A stretch of DNA of 64,000 nt, from assembly GCA_029194535.1 (NCBI GenBank), contig JARFXR010000002.1, positions 744,001-808,000 on the forward strand. Reading direction: 5' to 3'. Below, piece after piece: positions 41,599-55,483 of this stretch. The DNA comes from Nitrospira sp. (GTDB taxonomy: Bacteria > Nitrospirota > Nitrospiria > Nitrospirales > Nitrospiraceae). The first letter of the stretch is position 1; each line of letters opens with the position of its first letter. The position numbers were made by a program, and so were the translations under genes. The notes under the pieces were generated by a model that ran no database searches, was not told the DNA's origin, and worked only from the letters and a program-made list of their open reading frames with translations.

Positions 41599-41752
41599 TA
41601 GAACCTATCTCAACACTCCTTCATGATGGGATGGGGTCCGTTGTCGTCATTCCCGTGCAAGCGGGAATCCAGTATTTCAGATCATTCTGGATGCCCGCTT
41701 TCGCGGGCATGACCAGTTCTGACCGGAACACCCATTCTTGAGATAGGTTCTA
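41599..41752. mobile_element. 154-bp MITE-like element, copy 1
   Basis: A non-coding element bounded by perfect 15-bp terminal inverted repeats, TAGAACCTATCTCAA at 41599-41613 and TTGAGATAGGTTCTA at 41738-41752. Inside are two GC-rich hairpins: TCATTCCCG...CGGGAATCCAG and CTGGATGCCCGC...GCGGGCATGA. An equal-length copy lies at 52581-52734 in the opposite orientation. The right terminal repeat supplies the stop codon of the adjacent reductase gene. It encodes no transposase, so any movement would need one in trans. Confidence 0.85.
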
Positions 41753-48253: not shown

Positions 48254-49594
48254 TCACAGCTTGAGCACACATTTCTCATAGAGACTTTTCAACCGGTGCC
48301 CCGAATCGTAACGGTCCTTGAGGCGACGATAGGCCTCGCCGTTGTACAGCCGATCGAACTCTTCTCGAGAGTAGTACGAGGTCGAGTACAGCGACTTGTG
48401 CCCGTGGAGGTCCAGAACCGCGGCCTCGACCAGCTTGTTGAAATGCCCGTCGCCGTGGCGGCTCTTCACGGTATCCCAGAAACCGAAATTGACGTAGATC
48501 GTGCGCGGTGTCATGGGATACAAGCTATATGAGCGGGAGGGATCGCGCGCCGCGACGGGGCAGAGCCAGACGGGCGTGATGCCGATGCGCTCGTTGAAGA
48601 ACCGCGCAAAGCGAGGCGCCTGTTCGATCGGGATCTCCACATCTTGAATGACTGCCTCCTGCCGGCCCTGGATCATCTTCAACGCCGATTGCGCAACCGG
48701 AGAGGCGTGAGCCCGCTTCCACAGTCGCCAGTACACCGTCGAATTGAGCCGCTCCTTGCCCCACAGCCGCCGCATGATCGGATACTGCAGCAAGAAGTGT
48801 TTGGAGCACCAGAACCAATCCGTGTCCCAACGCCACAGATAGTCATGCGCAATCAGGTAATCCGTCGCCTTCTCCGTCACGGACCGGTAGTACATCCGAA
48901 GATACGTGTAATCGCTCAGCCATTCGGCCCGATCCACGAAGACTCCGGTCGTCAAATAGAACGTCTCCGCGTCGAACATCGTGCCGTCCACGAAATCGGC
49001 GTCGCCCGAACGGCAGGCCTCGGACATGGCCTCAAAGTATCGGTCCGGATCCGTAAAGCGGCGGTGCGTGAGCCTCACGAAGGGTTTGATCGGAATCAGC
49101 TCGACGACGGTCCGCAGCGCATAACCCAGCGTGCCGTAGGAATTGGGAAATCCGAAGAATAGCTCACGATGGTCGTTGTCGGCGGTCGCCGTGACGACGC
49201 GACCGTCGGCGAGCAGGACATCGATCTCGCGCATCGTCTCGTGGACGAACCCCTGCCTGAAGGATGAGGATTCGATGCCGATCCCGGCGATCGCGCCGCC
49301 GACCGTGATGGACTTGAGCTGCGGCACCACCGCCGGCATCAATTGGAACGGCAAGGTTTCCCGGACCAGTTCCTCGTAGGTCGTCAGGGCTTCCACGTCC
49401 GCCGTCCGGCTCTGCTCATCGATCCGGAGGACATGTCGGAACTCCCGCAAGTCAAGCCGGCGTCCCGTCGGTCCGGTGCGATGCCGAAAGAGATTGGACG
49501 TGGATTTCTCCAGTGAAAGTCCCTCGGAACCGAGGGCCTGCATGCTGGCGGCGGCACGCGCCCGCTTCTCGGCATACGCATCAAAAGGAATCAT
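48254..49594 (-). CDS. FAD-binding oxidoreductase (DHCR24/BfaA-TmsA type)
   Basis: A 446-aa protein with an N-terminal PCMH-type FAD domain. Its residues include DVEALTTYEELVRET, PQLKSITVGGAIAGIGIESSSFRQGFVHE and ELFFGFPNSYGTLGYALRT, the usual FAD-binding walls. The C-terminal part is a cap domain rich in Trp and Tyr with WRWDTDWFWCSKHF. Relatives include plant DIMINUTO, DHCR24 and the bacterial proteins that reduce a methylene to a methyl group on fatty acyl chains (BfaA/TmsA). It starts 4 bp after a Cfa-type methyltransferase gene and shares the operon with a desaturase, so the same step is proposed here. The ATG is at 49592-49594. Confidence 0.85.
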   Translation of the reverse strand: MIPFDAYAEKRARAAASMQALGSEGLSLEKSTSNLFRHRTGPTGRRLDLREFRHVLRIDEQSRTADVEALTTYEELVRETLPFQLMPAVVPQLKSITVGGAIAGIGIESSSFRQGFVHETMREIDVLLADGRVVTATADNDHRELFFGFPNSYGTLGYALRTVVELIPIKPFVRLTHRRFTDPDRYFEAMSEACRSGDADFVDGTMFDAETFYLTTGVFVDRAEWLSDYTYLRMYYRSVTEKATDYLIAHDYLWRWDTDWFWCSKHFLLQYPIMRRLWGKERLNSTVYWRLWKRAHASPVAQSALKMIQGRQEAVIQDVEIPIEQAPRFARFFNERIGITPVWLCPVAARDPSRSYSLYPMTPRTIYVNFGFWDTVKSRHGDGHFNKLVEAAVLDLHGHKSLYSTSYYSREEFDRLYNGEAYRRLKDRYDSGHRLKSLYEKCVLKL

Positions 49595-49598
49595 GCGC

Positions 49599-50708
49599 CT
49601 ATCGTACGGGTTCGTAGCCGCCCAACACACCGTGCTTGGAGAGTACGACCTGCCACAGGTGGATGCGGCGGGCGCGGAAAGCCCCAGCCAGCGATAAGAG
49701 GTAGTAGCGCCACATGCGGCTGAACCGTTCGTCGAATTTGGCCTTGAGCTCTTCCCAATGCCGGTCCACGTTCTCCTGCCAGGCCACGAGTGTGCGGTCG
49801 TAGTCGGGACCGAAATTGTGCCAGTCTTCCAGCACCAGAAGCCCGTCCATCGCCGCGCTGAGTTGCGCAACGGACGGGAGCATGCCGCCGGGGAAAATGT
49901 ACTTGTCGAACCAGGGATCGGCCGTCGAGACCGAGGCGTTGTTCCCGATCGTATGGAGCAGAAAGAGGCCTCGGCGTTTCAGCGTCCGATGGACCGTCTC
50001 CATGAGCGTCCGGTAATTCTTGTATCCGACGTGTTCGCACAAGCCGATCGCCGCGACCTTGTCGAATTCGCCGACCGCTTCCCGGTAGTCGCCATGAATC
50101 ACCTCGACGGGGAGATCCTCGCACCACTTACGCGCGTAGCTGACTTGTTGCTCCGAAATGTTATAGGCGGTCACGTGGCATCCGTAGTGGGTGGAGGCAT
50201 AGCGGGCGAAGCCGCCCCATCCGCAACCGAGTTCGAGCACCCGATCCCCCTTCTGAAGATGCAGCTTTCTGCAGACGAGATCCAGCTTATGCTTCTGCGC
50301 CGTCTCCAGATCCTGGGCCCGCTTCCAATAAGCGCAGGTATACTGCATGTACGGGCCCAGCATTTTCTCATAAAACGCACTGTCCAGATCGTAGTGCTGC
50401 TGGGCGACACGCCTCGACAGCCGCCTGTTCTGCATGTTGAACAGCCGCGCCTTCAGCGCGTTCATGATGAGGTACTTGTCGACGACGGCGTGGTCCAACG
50501 ACACGTCGTGAAACCTGGCGAAGAATTCGTCCAAACGCCGCGCGTCCCACCAGCCGTCCATGTAGGATTCGCCGAGCCCTAGCGAGCCCTCCGCCAAGAC
50601 ACGGGCATAAAAGCGGTCGTCGTGGACGAGAATGTCCCCCGACTCCGGCCCGTCGATTCGAATACGGGCTTTCTCCAGCAAACTCTCGATCGTCGATTTC
50701 TGGTTCAT
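49599..50708 (-). CDS. Cfa-type fatty-acyl-phospholipid methyltransferase
   Basis: A 369-aa SAM-dependent enzyme similar along its length to cyclopropane-fatty-acyl-phospholipid synthase. The SAM loop VLELGCGWGG is at 157-166, the active-site cysteine in MQYTCAYW (Cys125), with AYNISEQQVSYAR and IGLCEHVGYKNYR as further family marks. It adds a methyl or methylene group to a double bond of a membrane fatty acid. With the following reductase it would give a mid-chain methyl group; without it, a cyclopropane ring. It is 42 bp downstream of the desaturase gene. Start ATG at 50706-50708. Confidence 0.92.
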   Translation of the reverse strand: MNQKSTIESLLEKARIRIDGPESGDILVHDDRFYARVLAEGSLGLGESYMDGWWDARRLDEFFARFHDVSLDHAVVDKYLIMNALKARLFNMQNRRLSRRVAQQHYDLDSAFYEKMLGPYMQYTCAYWKRAQDLETAQKHKLDLVCRKLHLQKGDRVLELGCGWGGFARYASTHYGCHVTAYNISEQQVSYARKWCEDLPVEVIHGDYREAVGEFDKVAAIGLCEHVGYKNYRTLMETVHRTLKRRGLFLLHTIGNNASVSTADPWFDKYIFPGGMLPSVAQLSAAMDGLLVLEDWHNFGPDYDRTLVAWQENVDRHWEELKAKFDERFSRMWRYYLLSLAGAFRARRIHLWQVVLSKHGVLGGYEPVR

Positions 50709-50750
50709 GATCCGCCGTTCAGAATGGCCGCTGGATTTCCGCTTTGCGAC

Positions 50751-51665
50751 CTACCGGAGGGCGGCCGGTGCCTGGGAGCCGTGCGATCGAAAGGACTGCT
50801 CGACGGCGATAGTCGCGGCTTTGACCTGCGGGGGCGGTGTGCGGATGTCCCACACAAGCCCGACCCACGACAGCGCGACCAGGACGTAGTAGGACAGATC
50901 CACCTCCCACCAGAACCAGCCCTGATTGGCCGCAATCTGATAATGGTGATGGTTGTTGTGCCAGCCTTCTCCACAACAGAGAAGGGCGAGGATGAAACTG
51001 TTTCTGCTCCCGTCGCCGGATCGGTAGCGAACGGTCCCGAACAGATGGGTCAGTGAGTTGATGAAGAACGTGCAATGGTAGAGAGCCGTCGTGGAGACGA
51101 AGAAGCCCCAGACCAGCCCCGGAAATCCCCAGAGCAGGTAGAGCAGGCCGCCGTACACGACCGGGGGAAGAAAATAGAACCGATCCAGGTATCGAATTTC
51201 AGGATAGCGGCTGAGGTCCTTCACCAGGCTCAAATCCGTCTTCACATGATCATCCGAGAGGATCCAGCCGATGTGCGAATACCAGAATCCCCGCTGCAGG
51301 GGAGAATGGAAATCTTCTTCCCGGTCTGAATACTTATGGTGATGGCGGTGATGGGCGGCCCACCAGAGCACCCCCTTCTGGGCGGACGTCATCGCCCAAA
51401 ACGCCAGCAGAAATTGAAACACCCGGCTGGTCTTGAACGAGCGGTGCGAGAAATAGCGGTGATATCCCGCCGTGACGCCGATCATCCTCACGTAGTAGCT
51501 CCCCACGGCGAGAACGACCCATTCCCATCGAACGCCCGTCTGGATCGCGGCGAGGCAGAGCAGATGGATCGCGATGAACGGGAATGACTCCCACGAAAGC
51601 CCAAGAGACTTGAGCGGAGCCGACTGACCAGGACGGGCAGCTACCACGGGGACCTCTGAGAGCAT
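50751..51665 (-). CDS. Membrane-bound acyl desaturase
   Basis: A 304-aa integral membrane di-iron desaturase. All three histidine boxes are present: HRYFSH (69-74), HRHHH (106-110) and HNNHH (236-240). Around them are four hydrophobic segments and EDFHSPLQRGFWYSHIGWIL, typical of stearoyl-CoA-type desaturases. It introduces a double bond into an acyl chain, which the next gene's product can methylate. The ATG at 51663-51665 gives the usual short cytoplasmic N-terminus; an extension to 51758 is possible but has no homology-like content. First gene of the lipid operon. Confidence 0.93.
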   Translation of the reverse strand: MLSEVPVVAARPGQSAPLKSLGLSWESFPFIAIHLLCLAAIQTGVRWEWVVLAVGSYYVRMIGVTAGYHRYFSHRSFKTSRVFQFLLAFWAMTSAQKGVLWWAAHHRHHHKYSDREEDFHSPLQRGFWYSHIGWILSDDHVKTDLSLVKDLSRYPEIRYLDRFYFLPPVVYGGLLYLLWGFPGLVWGFFVSTTALYHCTFFINSLTHLFGTVRYRSGDGSRNSFILALLCCGEGWHNNHHHYQIAANQGWFWWEVDLSYYVLVALSWVGLVWDIRTPPPQVKAATIAVEQSFRSHGSQAPAALR

Positions 51666-51858
51666 CTGCCGACCGCCGACAGCACCACTTTTCGTCCGAC
51701 TCTTTCTCTCAACGGGCCCCAATTCATCACATGGATACTCGGAAACAGCATGACCCACGCGGCTCCGAACACATCCTTCCCAGGCCTTGCCAAGGCCGGC
51801 GCGTCAGCACCGCGAATCTACGTGCTCAGATAAAGGTGCTTGTTCACTCCCGGACTCG

Positions 51859-52580: not shown

Positions 52581-52734
52581 TAGAACCTATCTCAAGATGG
52601 GTGTTCCGCTCAGAACCAGTCATGCCCGTGAAAGCGGGCATCCAGAGTGACCTGAAAAGTCTGGATTCCCGCCTGCGCGGGAATGACGACAACAGACCTC
52701 ATCCCGTCATGAACGAATTTTGAGATAGGTTCTA
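52581..52734. mobile_element. 154-bp MITE-like element, copy 2
   Basis: The same element as at 41599-41752 but inverted. The terminal repeats TAGAACCTATCTCAA (52581-52595) and TTGAGATAGGTTCTA (52720-52734) are identical to copy 1, the length is identical, and the internal double hairpin is conserved. It sits between the ABM gene and the type I restriction locus. With copy 1 it forms a pair of inverted repeats enclosing about 10.8 kb. Confidence 0.85.
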
Positions 52735-53003: not shown

Positions 53004-54266
53004 TTGAGTCTCGGGAGAGGCCCGCTCATCTCCGACCTGTGGAACGCCGCAGATCACCTCCGCGCGAACTCCAAGCTGACCTCCAGCGATTATTGTATGC
53101 CCGTCCTGGGCGTGATCTTCTTGCGCCACGCGGCCAATCGGTTTGAGGCGGCGCAGCGGCAGATCGATGCTGACCAGGCGAGCGGCAAGATGCCGAAGCG
53201 CAAGGTGCGCCCGGAGGACTATATCGCCCGGCGTGCGCTCTTTCTGCCGAAGAACGCCCGCTACGAGTGGATGATTCAGCAGGCTGCCGTGAGCGGTGTC
53301 GATTTCCCCAAGCTCGTCACTGACGCCATGACCGCGATCGAGGATACGTTTCCGCCGCTCAAGGGCGTGCTGCCGAAAGACTACGGCATTTTCGAACCGA
53401 AAGTATTGGAAGACCTGATGCGGCTCTTCAACAGCGAGCAGGTCAGGCAGGCCACCGGCGATGTATTCGGCCGCATCTATGAATACTTCCTTGCCGAATT
53501 CTCAGTGCAAAAAGCCCACGACAACGGAGAATTCTTCACGCCTCCGTCGCTGGTGCAGACGATCGTGAACGTCATCGAACCGGACCATGGCCTCGTGTTC
53601 GATCCGGCAAGCGGGTCCGGCGGCATGTTTGTCCAGTCCAGCCACTTCATCGAACATAAGGGCGGCGACACGGCAAAGAAGGTGGTGTTTTATGGGCAGG
53701 AGAAGAACCGCGACACCATCCACATCGCGAAGATGAATCTCGCCGTGCACGGGCTGGAAGGCAAGATTGCCGAGGCGATCCTCGGTCTCGTCAAGCAAGT
53801 GGACTTGCTCTACAAGCTCGCCGCGCGGGTCGCGGACCTCGGCAATGAGATGTCCCTCGCCCCCGGCAACGGGGGAGAGGGCAAGGGTGAGGGGCTGACT
53901 TATGACCGCCGCTCGACTGGCAAGTTGATCAAACAGCTTGATGAGCAGCGCAAAACTGCCGTCGAGCAGATGAAGCAAGCTGCCTATGTCCACCGCCAAG
54001 TCCTGTGGCTTCAGGACCGGTTTCCAAAAGCGGAACTGGAGGATGTGCCGGGGCTGGTGAAACTGGTGGATCGAAAAGAGATCGAGGCCGCTGACTGGAG
54101 CCTCACGCCCGGCCGCTATGTCGGCGTCGCCCCGCCGGAAGAGGACGAGGACTTCGACTTCGAGCAGACCCTGCGCGACATCCACACCGAGCTGGCCGAC
54201 CTGAACAAGGAAACGGCCGAGCTGGCGGCGAAGATTCAGGAGAACTTCGAGGAGCTGGGGGCATGA
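53004..54266 (+). pseudogene. hsdM: Type I restriction-modification DNA methylase HsdM with internal in-frame deletion
   Basis: A 420-codon open frame. It matches N6-adenine methylase subunits at both ends: GPLISDLWNAADHLRANSKL, GEFFTPPSLVQTIVNVI and SAM motif I FDPASGSGGMF (199-209) at the front; KQAAYVHRQVLWLQDRFP and the acidic tail EEDEDFDFEQTLRDIH at the back. After GLEGKIAEA (about residue 258) the sequence jumps to LGLVKQVDLLYKL, so the part with the catalytic NPPF motif is missing; full-length members of this family are near 700 aa. Residues 284-298 (SLAPGNGGEGKGEGL) look like a translated G-rich repeat. The start is a TTG. Methylation activity is not expected. It overlaps hsdS by 4 bp. 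Confidence 0.85.
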
Positions 54267-55483
54267 GCTGGCGGACGCTGACCATCGGTGATCTGGTGGA
54301 CGATGACGGCGCTGAAATACAGACGGGGCCATTCGGAACGCAGCTGAAGGCCAGTGACTACGTGGATGACGGCACTCCTGTGATCAATGTCCGCAACATC
54401 GGCTATGGGCGGCTGAAGCCAGAGAAGCTTGAGTTCGTGAGCGAGGAAACCGCGGAGCGCCTCTCTTCTCATCTTCTCGAACCGTAGGACATCGTGTTTG
54501 GTCGCAAAGGCGCCGTCGACCGACATCTTTTTGTTGGTGAGGAACAGGAGCATTGGATGCAGGGTTCCGACTGCATCCGCCTTCGCTTCCTGAATGCCGA
54601 TGTTGTGCCCCGCTTCGTTTCGTATTTATTCCTGACCGAGACTCATCAGAAATGGATGCTAGTGCAGGCAGGGAACAAGGCAACGATGGCATCTCTGAAC
54701 CACGACATCATCAGGCGGATCACATTGCGTCTTCCGCCTCCTCCGGTTCAAGCAGCTACGGTTAGCATCCTCTCCGCCTACGACGACCTCATCGAGAACA
54801 ACCGGCGGCGGATGGCATTGTTGGAGGAGGCGGCGCGGCAGCTCTACCGCGAGTGGTTTGTCTGCCTCCGCTTCCCCGGCTACGAGCACACCCGCATTAG
54901 AAACGGCGTGCCGGAGGGATGGGAACGGAAGACACTCGGTGAGTTGTGTGAGGAAGTTCGCGAACCTGTGAAGCCCAATGCACTTGAGCCATCCACGCCA
55001 TACATCGGCCTGGAACATATGCCTCGTCGGTCAATCTCTCTCAGTGAGTGGGGTACAGCCGAACAGATCACCAGTAACAAACACCGCTTCCGTCAGGGCG
55101 AGATCCTTTTCGGGAAGATACGCCCGTACTTCCATAAGGTAGGGATTGCTTTCGTTGATGGTGTCTCATCTTCCGACTCGATCGTCATCCGAGCAGGCGA
55201 CGCAGGGTACCACGGACTAGTTCTGATGACGGTATCGAGCGACCCCTTTGTGGCGCTGACGGCTCAGACCATGAAGGAAGGTTCGAAGATGCCGAGGGCC
55301 GATTGGAAGCAAATGCAAGCTTACCCGGTGCCTTCGCCCCCTCACGGATTGCTGAGCAGCTTCGAGAGTGTCGTTCGCTCCACTGTCGAGCAATTGAAGA
55401 CCCTCACATTCTTGAACCAGAAGCTCCGCGCGGCCCGTGACCTCCTATTGCCCCGCCTGATGAGCGGCGAAATCGCCGTCTAA
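54263..55483 (+). pseudogene. hsdS: Type I restriction-modification specificity subunit HsdS with premature stop
   Basis: The frame would encode about 406 aa with two target-recognition domains. The first has DGAEIQTGPFGTQLKASDY and FGRKGAVDRHLF; the second has GWERKTLGELCEEV, ILFGKIRPYFHKVGIAF and the C-terminal LLLPRLMSGEIAV. Codon 75 at 54485-54487 is TAG, in frame, at a spot where relatives continue LEPxDIVFGRKG. The rest of the frame is clean, so a single point mutation made it a pseudogene. Unless the amber codon is suppressed or a GTG at 54494 restarts translation, no complete subunit is made. Start overlaps hsdM by ATGA. Confidence 0.88.

Follow-up and report, generated by a model that had tools for sequence, protein, structure and literature searches.

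Locus and gene content

The window, a 64,000-nucleotide stretch of a Nitrospira genome (3.98 Mb in 5 contigs), carries three minus-strand genes that run from a fatty acid desaturase through a methyltransferase to a FAD-dependent oxidoreductase (Table 1). The original prediction had described three tightly packed genes here, and their placement is confirmed, with gaps of 42 bp between desaturase and methyltransferase and 4 bp between methyltransferase and FAD protein. Pfam recognizes FA_desaturase (E = 3.5e-16), CMAS (6.8e-75) and FAD_binding_4 (4.3e-13) in the three products. The desaturase reading frame, with its stop at 50751, is open upstream as far as a GTG at 51758, but the start is probably the ATG at 51665, because homologues align from about there. 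For the FAD protein, a longer reading frame from a TTG at 49870 would overlap the methyltransferase, and homologues begin at the ATG at 49594.

Table 1. Features of the operon, in window coordinates
Feature	Position	Strand	Remarks
Fatty acid desaturase, SCD1-like (stearoyl-CoA Delta9 type)	50751..51665	-	Heads the operon; 304 aa; FA_desaturase, PDB matches and His boxes
Cfa-type SAM-dependent methyltransferase	49599..50708	-	369 aa; proposed methylene-branched acyl product
BfaA-type FAD-dependent methylene-fatty-acid reductase (assigned by homology)	48254..49594	-	446 aa
Methyltransferase T124-C125 (E. coli Cfa S138-C139)	50334..50339	-	Thr beside the bicarbonate-ligand Cys; column scan
Methyltransferase L223-C224-E225 (E. 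coli Cfa M237-F238-E239)	50034..50042	-	Altered pair preceding the catalytic Glu

The order of the trio is kept in other Nitrospiraceae genera, where the flanking genes differ. Conservation of the flanks is limited to the window's own genus, and the trio is therefore the unit. A scan for promoters and terminators gave signal at chance level. Upstream of the operon, at 53004-55483, lies a pair of open reading frames that read as type I restriction-modification-like genes, HsdM-like then HsdS-like. The window also has a MITE-like element of 154 bp, with the inverted ends TAGAACCTATCTCAA, at 52581-52734 and again at 41599-41752; its end sequence has 27 copies in the genome, against 0 of a reversed control, and several of these form pairs 139 bp apart.

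The closest PDB matches of the desaturase are the acyl-CoA desaturases 4zyo and 4ymk (6e-29), and all three histidine boxes are present (HRYFSH, HHRHHH and HNNHHH). On the strength of this SCD1-like character, we expect an enzyme of Delta9 type, which would predict a 10-methyl and not an 11-methyl product. The Bfa and Tmp enzymes, however, take Delta9 to Delta11 chains (PMC7791843), so the branch position could differ from 10.

A BfaA-type reductase

Over 93-100% of its length, the FAD protein shows 44-53% identity to a Variovorax protein and to the FAD partners of actinobacterial operons, which we took as BfaA on the basis of operon, gene order, taxon and size. This full-length identity to the partners in bfaAB-type operons supports the earlier proposal that the protein is a BfaA-family reductase. 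When plasmid records were searched with it, only 8 matches were returned, including Variovorax, Nonomuraea, Prescottella, Tsukamurella and Nocardia, and the best 6 of the 8 align over 93-95% of the query, with 45-53% identity. A CMAS methyltransferase gene comes directly after the FAD protein gene in Tsukamurella, Nocardia and Nonomuraea; in Variovorax, the relative sits in methyltransferase-FAD pairs. The stretch WRWDTDWFWCS is nearly invariant across the family and serves as its mark, and FAD_binding_4 is the only Pfam match of the window protein.

Its AlphaFold model (pLDDT 88) has DprE1 and cytokinin oxidase as closest solved folds, a likeness that would be expected of a VAO-type flavoprotein. 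Another FAD_binding_4 enzyme, DHCR24, reduces a C=C bond, and with this precedent, C=C reduction by the FAD protein is chemically plausible. Furan fatty acid synthesis, the UfaM/UfaD/UfaO pathway, likewise begins with a CMAS-type methyltransferase. A furan or other oxidized-methylene pathway, in which the FAD protein would oxidize the methylene lipid instead of reducing it, could thus share the first step, and the two closest folds are indeed oxidases. Against this, the closest relatives in sequence belong to bfaAB-type operons, whose FAD partner reduces the methylene (PMC5660069, PMC7791843), and the Nitrospira operon holds no further oxygenase; we consider an oxidative route highly improbable.

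Nine gammaproteobacterial loci (L056, L061, L066, L075, L080, L081, L097, L103 and L107) carry a BfaA-type reductase with no adjoining methyltransferase, and the reductase might therefore have other substrates.

Distribution in Nitrospiraceae

Across 175 Nitrospiraceae genomes, the reductase was found in 26, the Cfa-type methyltransferase (at least 70% identity) also in 26, and both together in 25. The two exceptions are one genome with the methyltransferase alone, in which the locus is cut by a contig end (G246), and one with the reductase alone (G260). This co-occurrence has a Fisher p of 5e-28, a value uncorrected for shared ancestry. The two genes are adjacent, and the recurring order of the trio, together with co-occurrence in 25 of 27 genomes, indicates that the arrangement is more than chance. 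The trio-type desaturase (at least 62% identity) is present in 29 of the 175 genomes, 5 of which are without the methyltransferase-reductase pair, and it adjoins the pair in most genomes. A desaturase paralogue at about 53% identity is nearly universal in the set. The trio appears in the window's genus, including the genomes that we take to be N. japonica (G181) and strain KM1 (G183), and in scattered other Nitrospiraceae.

A Cfa-lineage methyltransferase with an altered active site

The original prediction had equated the methyltransferase with BfaB, an assignment that we do not retain. The protein matches E. coli Cfa (6bqc) across its whole length (1e-113; 48% identity) and is 31-37% identical to the methyltransferases of BfaB-type and Variovorax-type pairs. 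In a tree of 65 proteins it falls on the Cfa side, split from the BfaB side with support of 99/98; it is thus a member of the E. coli Cfa lineage and not an orthologue of BfaB. The same tree places the BfaB-type, Variovorax-type and Cfa-type partners in three separate groups, with all reductase-linked methyltransferases of the Nitrospiraceae in one clade. Except for one long branch (L095), the Cfa-type enzymes linked to a reductase form a group separate from stand-alone Cfa (95/98). The tree of the reductases sorts largely by the type of methyltransferase partner, which implies that the reductase switched partners at least twice. With NCBIfam PRK11705, the cyclopropane synthase model, the window enzyme scores 536 bits against a cut-off of 400, so it might still produce cyclopropanes.

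E. coli Cfa binds bicarbonate through C139, E239, H266, I268 and Y317 (PMC3132707), and the equivalents of all five ligands are intact in the window enzyme and in 71 of 71 reductase-linked enzymes. We anchored positions on C139 in an unbiased scan of every alignment column, comparing these 71 proteins with 57 unlinked CMAS proteins. E. coli Cfa positions 237 and 138, which lie beside E239 and C139, ranked first and second. Met237 is found in 57 of 57 unlinked proteins but in only 2 of the 71 linked ones, and Ser138 in 91% of the unlinked and 0% of the linked, which carry Thr where the position could be read. The residues at 237-238, just before the glutamate, differ by partner lineage, being L/I-C in Cfa-type, L-T in BfaB-type and T/V-L in Variovorax-type enzymes. 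Among the Nitrospiraceae copies, this pair is IC, LC or LT in 26 of 26, with Met237 lost in all, and Thr occupies position 138 in 23 of the 23 that are readable.

Five genomes were searched whole. There, CMAS paralogues away from the reductase all keep Met237, whereas the 3 that adjoin the reductase do not. Two of the five have a reductase without an adjacent methyltransferase, and there a distant CMAS paralogue combines Thr138 and Leu238 with Met237; these two belong to the gammaproteobacterial genomes described above. Together with the 2 of 71 linked enzymes that retain Met237, this makes the signature strong but not absolute. Met237 as a mark of cyclopropane synthases, where the window enzyme has Leu223, is furthermore a criterion derived in this analysis and not an accepted definition.

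One could instead take the methyltransferase for a standard cyclopropane fatty acid synthase, next to a FAD protein that does something unrelated or acts on a lipid with a cyclopropane ring or a double bond. Its descent from the lineage of E. coli Cfa at that level of identity, the PRK11705 score and the complete set of bicarbonate ligands would all fit. Yet an ordinary synthase would hardly account for a gene that adjoins, and almost perfectly co-occurs with, that of a BfaA-type reductase, for the replacement of Met237, Phe238 and Ser138, which are typical of unlinked Cfa, or for the separate grouping of linked and stand-alone enzymes, and we judge this explanation unlikely. The methyltransferase is more probably a Cfa-type enzyme that was re-tasked from cyclopropane to methylene chemistry, and residues 237 and 138 may be what decides between the two. 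They are mutable, and offer a testable cause of methylene release by a cyclopropane synthase.

Proposed pathway and relation to known systems

Gene content and gene order, co-occurrence, homology and the active-site changes lead us to regard the locus as a probable bfa-like operon, one whose products are membrane fatty acids with a methyl branch in mid-chain. A C16 or C18 acyl chain would first receive a cis double bond from the desaturase, most likely at Delta9; the Cfa-type methyltransferase would convert this into a methylene-branched chain, and reduction by the BfaA-type flavoprotein would then turn the exocyclic methylene into a methyl branch. We infer 10-methyl-hexadecanoate as the most likely product, or the 10-methyl C18 acid if oleate is used. 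Desaturation, methylenation and reduction were the logic originally proposed for the trio, and it is upheld in part: the BfaA-family reductase and an active-site signature common to its partner methyltransferases speak for it, whereas the identification of BfaB and the connection to N. moscoviensis (see below) fall away. It is our best reading of these sequences, with plain cyclopropane or furan products less likely.

Chemistry of this kind is known. In E. coli and yeast, bfaAB, which encodes a FAD-binding oxidoreductase and a SAM methyltransferase, turns oleate into 10-methylene- and 10-methyl-stearate (PMC5660069, PMC7791843), and M. smegmatis needs the methyltransferase of this operon to make tuberculostearic acid (PMC10127668). 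The actinobacterial bfaAB (tms) operons share with the Nitrospira operon a full-length homologous FAD_binding_4 reductase and an adjoining CMAS enzyme with an intact bicarbonate site and replaced Met237 and Ser138. They differ in that the reductase gene comes first, whereas Nitrospira has a desaturase at the head, a methyltransferase of Cfa lineage next and the reductase last. The tmpBA genes for 10-methylpalmitate in Desulfobacteraceae and gammaproteobacteria have the same methyltransferase-then-reductase order, and a C16 product is plausible in Nitrospira too, but TmpA is geranylgeranyl-reductase-like and not a homologue of BfaA (PMC7791843), unlike the BfaA-type FAD_binding_4 reductase found here, and TmpB forms its 10-methylene product with no BfaA involved. 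With E. coli Cfa, the window enzyme has in common the two-domain build, the overall identity and the five bicarbonate ligands; it differs in carrying L-C and T in place of M237-F238 and S138, and in having a reductase partner. The Variovorax and other Burkholderiales pairs, found in this analysis, have the same reductase family, the methyltransferase-reductase order and the residue signature, but their methyltransferase belongs to a third, separate lineage (about 33% identity). In part of the Nitrospiraceae, then, a BfaA-type reductase is paired with a Cfa-lineage methyltransferase; our search of the open-access literature turned up no paper in which these Nitrospira genes had been assigned.

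A broader reading, on which we are evenly divided, is that one reductase family joined different CMAS lineages on three or more separate occasions, and that the same two positions, Met237 and Ser138, changed each time. These positions would then switch enzymes of the superfamily in general between cyclopropane and methylene chemistry, and the reductase gene would mark mid-chain methyl-branched lipids in genomes well beyond actinobacteria, among them those of Nitrospira, Burkholderiales and acidobacteria. For cultured, globally important nitrite oxidizers the operon predicts 10-methyl branched membrane lipids.

A separate cluster on a Streptomyces virginiae plasmid (L245, 928-3625) tightly combines a desaturase, a protein of the nitroreductase/quinone-reductase family and a Cfa; perhaps a different reductase solves the same chemistry there.

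Nitrospira moscoviensis and other candidate clusters

We take genome G187 to be N. moscoviensis NSP M-1; the nearest match of its hydrogenase is Huc (7uus), a group 2a enzyme. A group 2a hydrogenase has been published for N. moscoviensis (PMC9381531). A search with the family alignment returned no BfaA-type reductase from G187 at E <= 0.01. G187, G110 and G055, the last of which we presume to be N. defluvii, were negative for the reductase both in this search and in a family-wide one, in which 26 other genomes were positive and which thus served as its positive control. Our search of the 175 Nitrospiraceae genomes likewise found no Cfa-type methyltransferase in G187, and none of its proteins scores as a geranylgeranyl-reductase-type TmpA above the TIGR02032 cut-off.

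The original prediction had offered the trio as an explanation for 11-methylhexadecanoic acid, which has been found in N. moscoviensis (PMC5516240). The general chemistry would be the same, and the acid does occur in that species. However, with both reductase and Cfa-type methyltransferase missing from G187, and no TmpA over the cut-off either, the trio cannot be the route to the acid there, and a Delta9-type desaturase would in any case predict a 10-methyl branch. We accordingly give this explanation almost no weight, and the marker lipid of Nitrospira needs another route.

A different cluster offers a candidate lead. In G187 (G187:C1, contig region 4136000-4152000; L207, 7674-11029), a desaturase gene is followed by genes for two CMAS-family methyltransferases of 301 and 432 aa, which might take part in the synthesis of 11-methylhexadecanoic acid. 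Many Nitrospira of lineage g2, for example at L208 and L212 (G241, G204), also carry a further CMAS gene about 5-6 kb from a desaturase paralogue, a possible second lipid-modification cluster.
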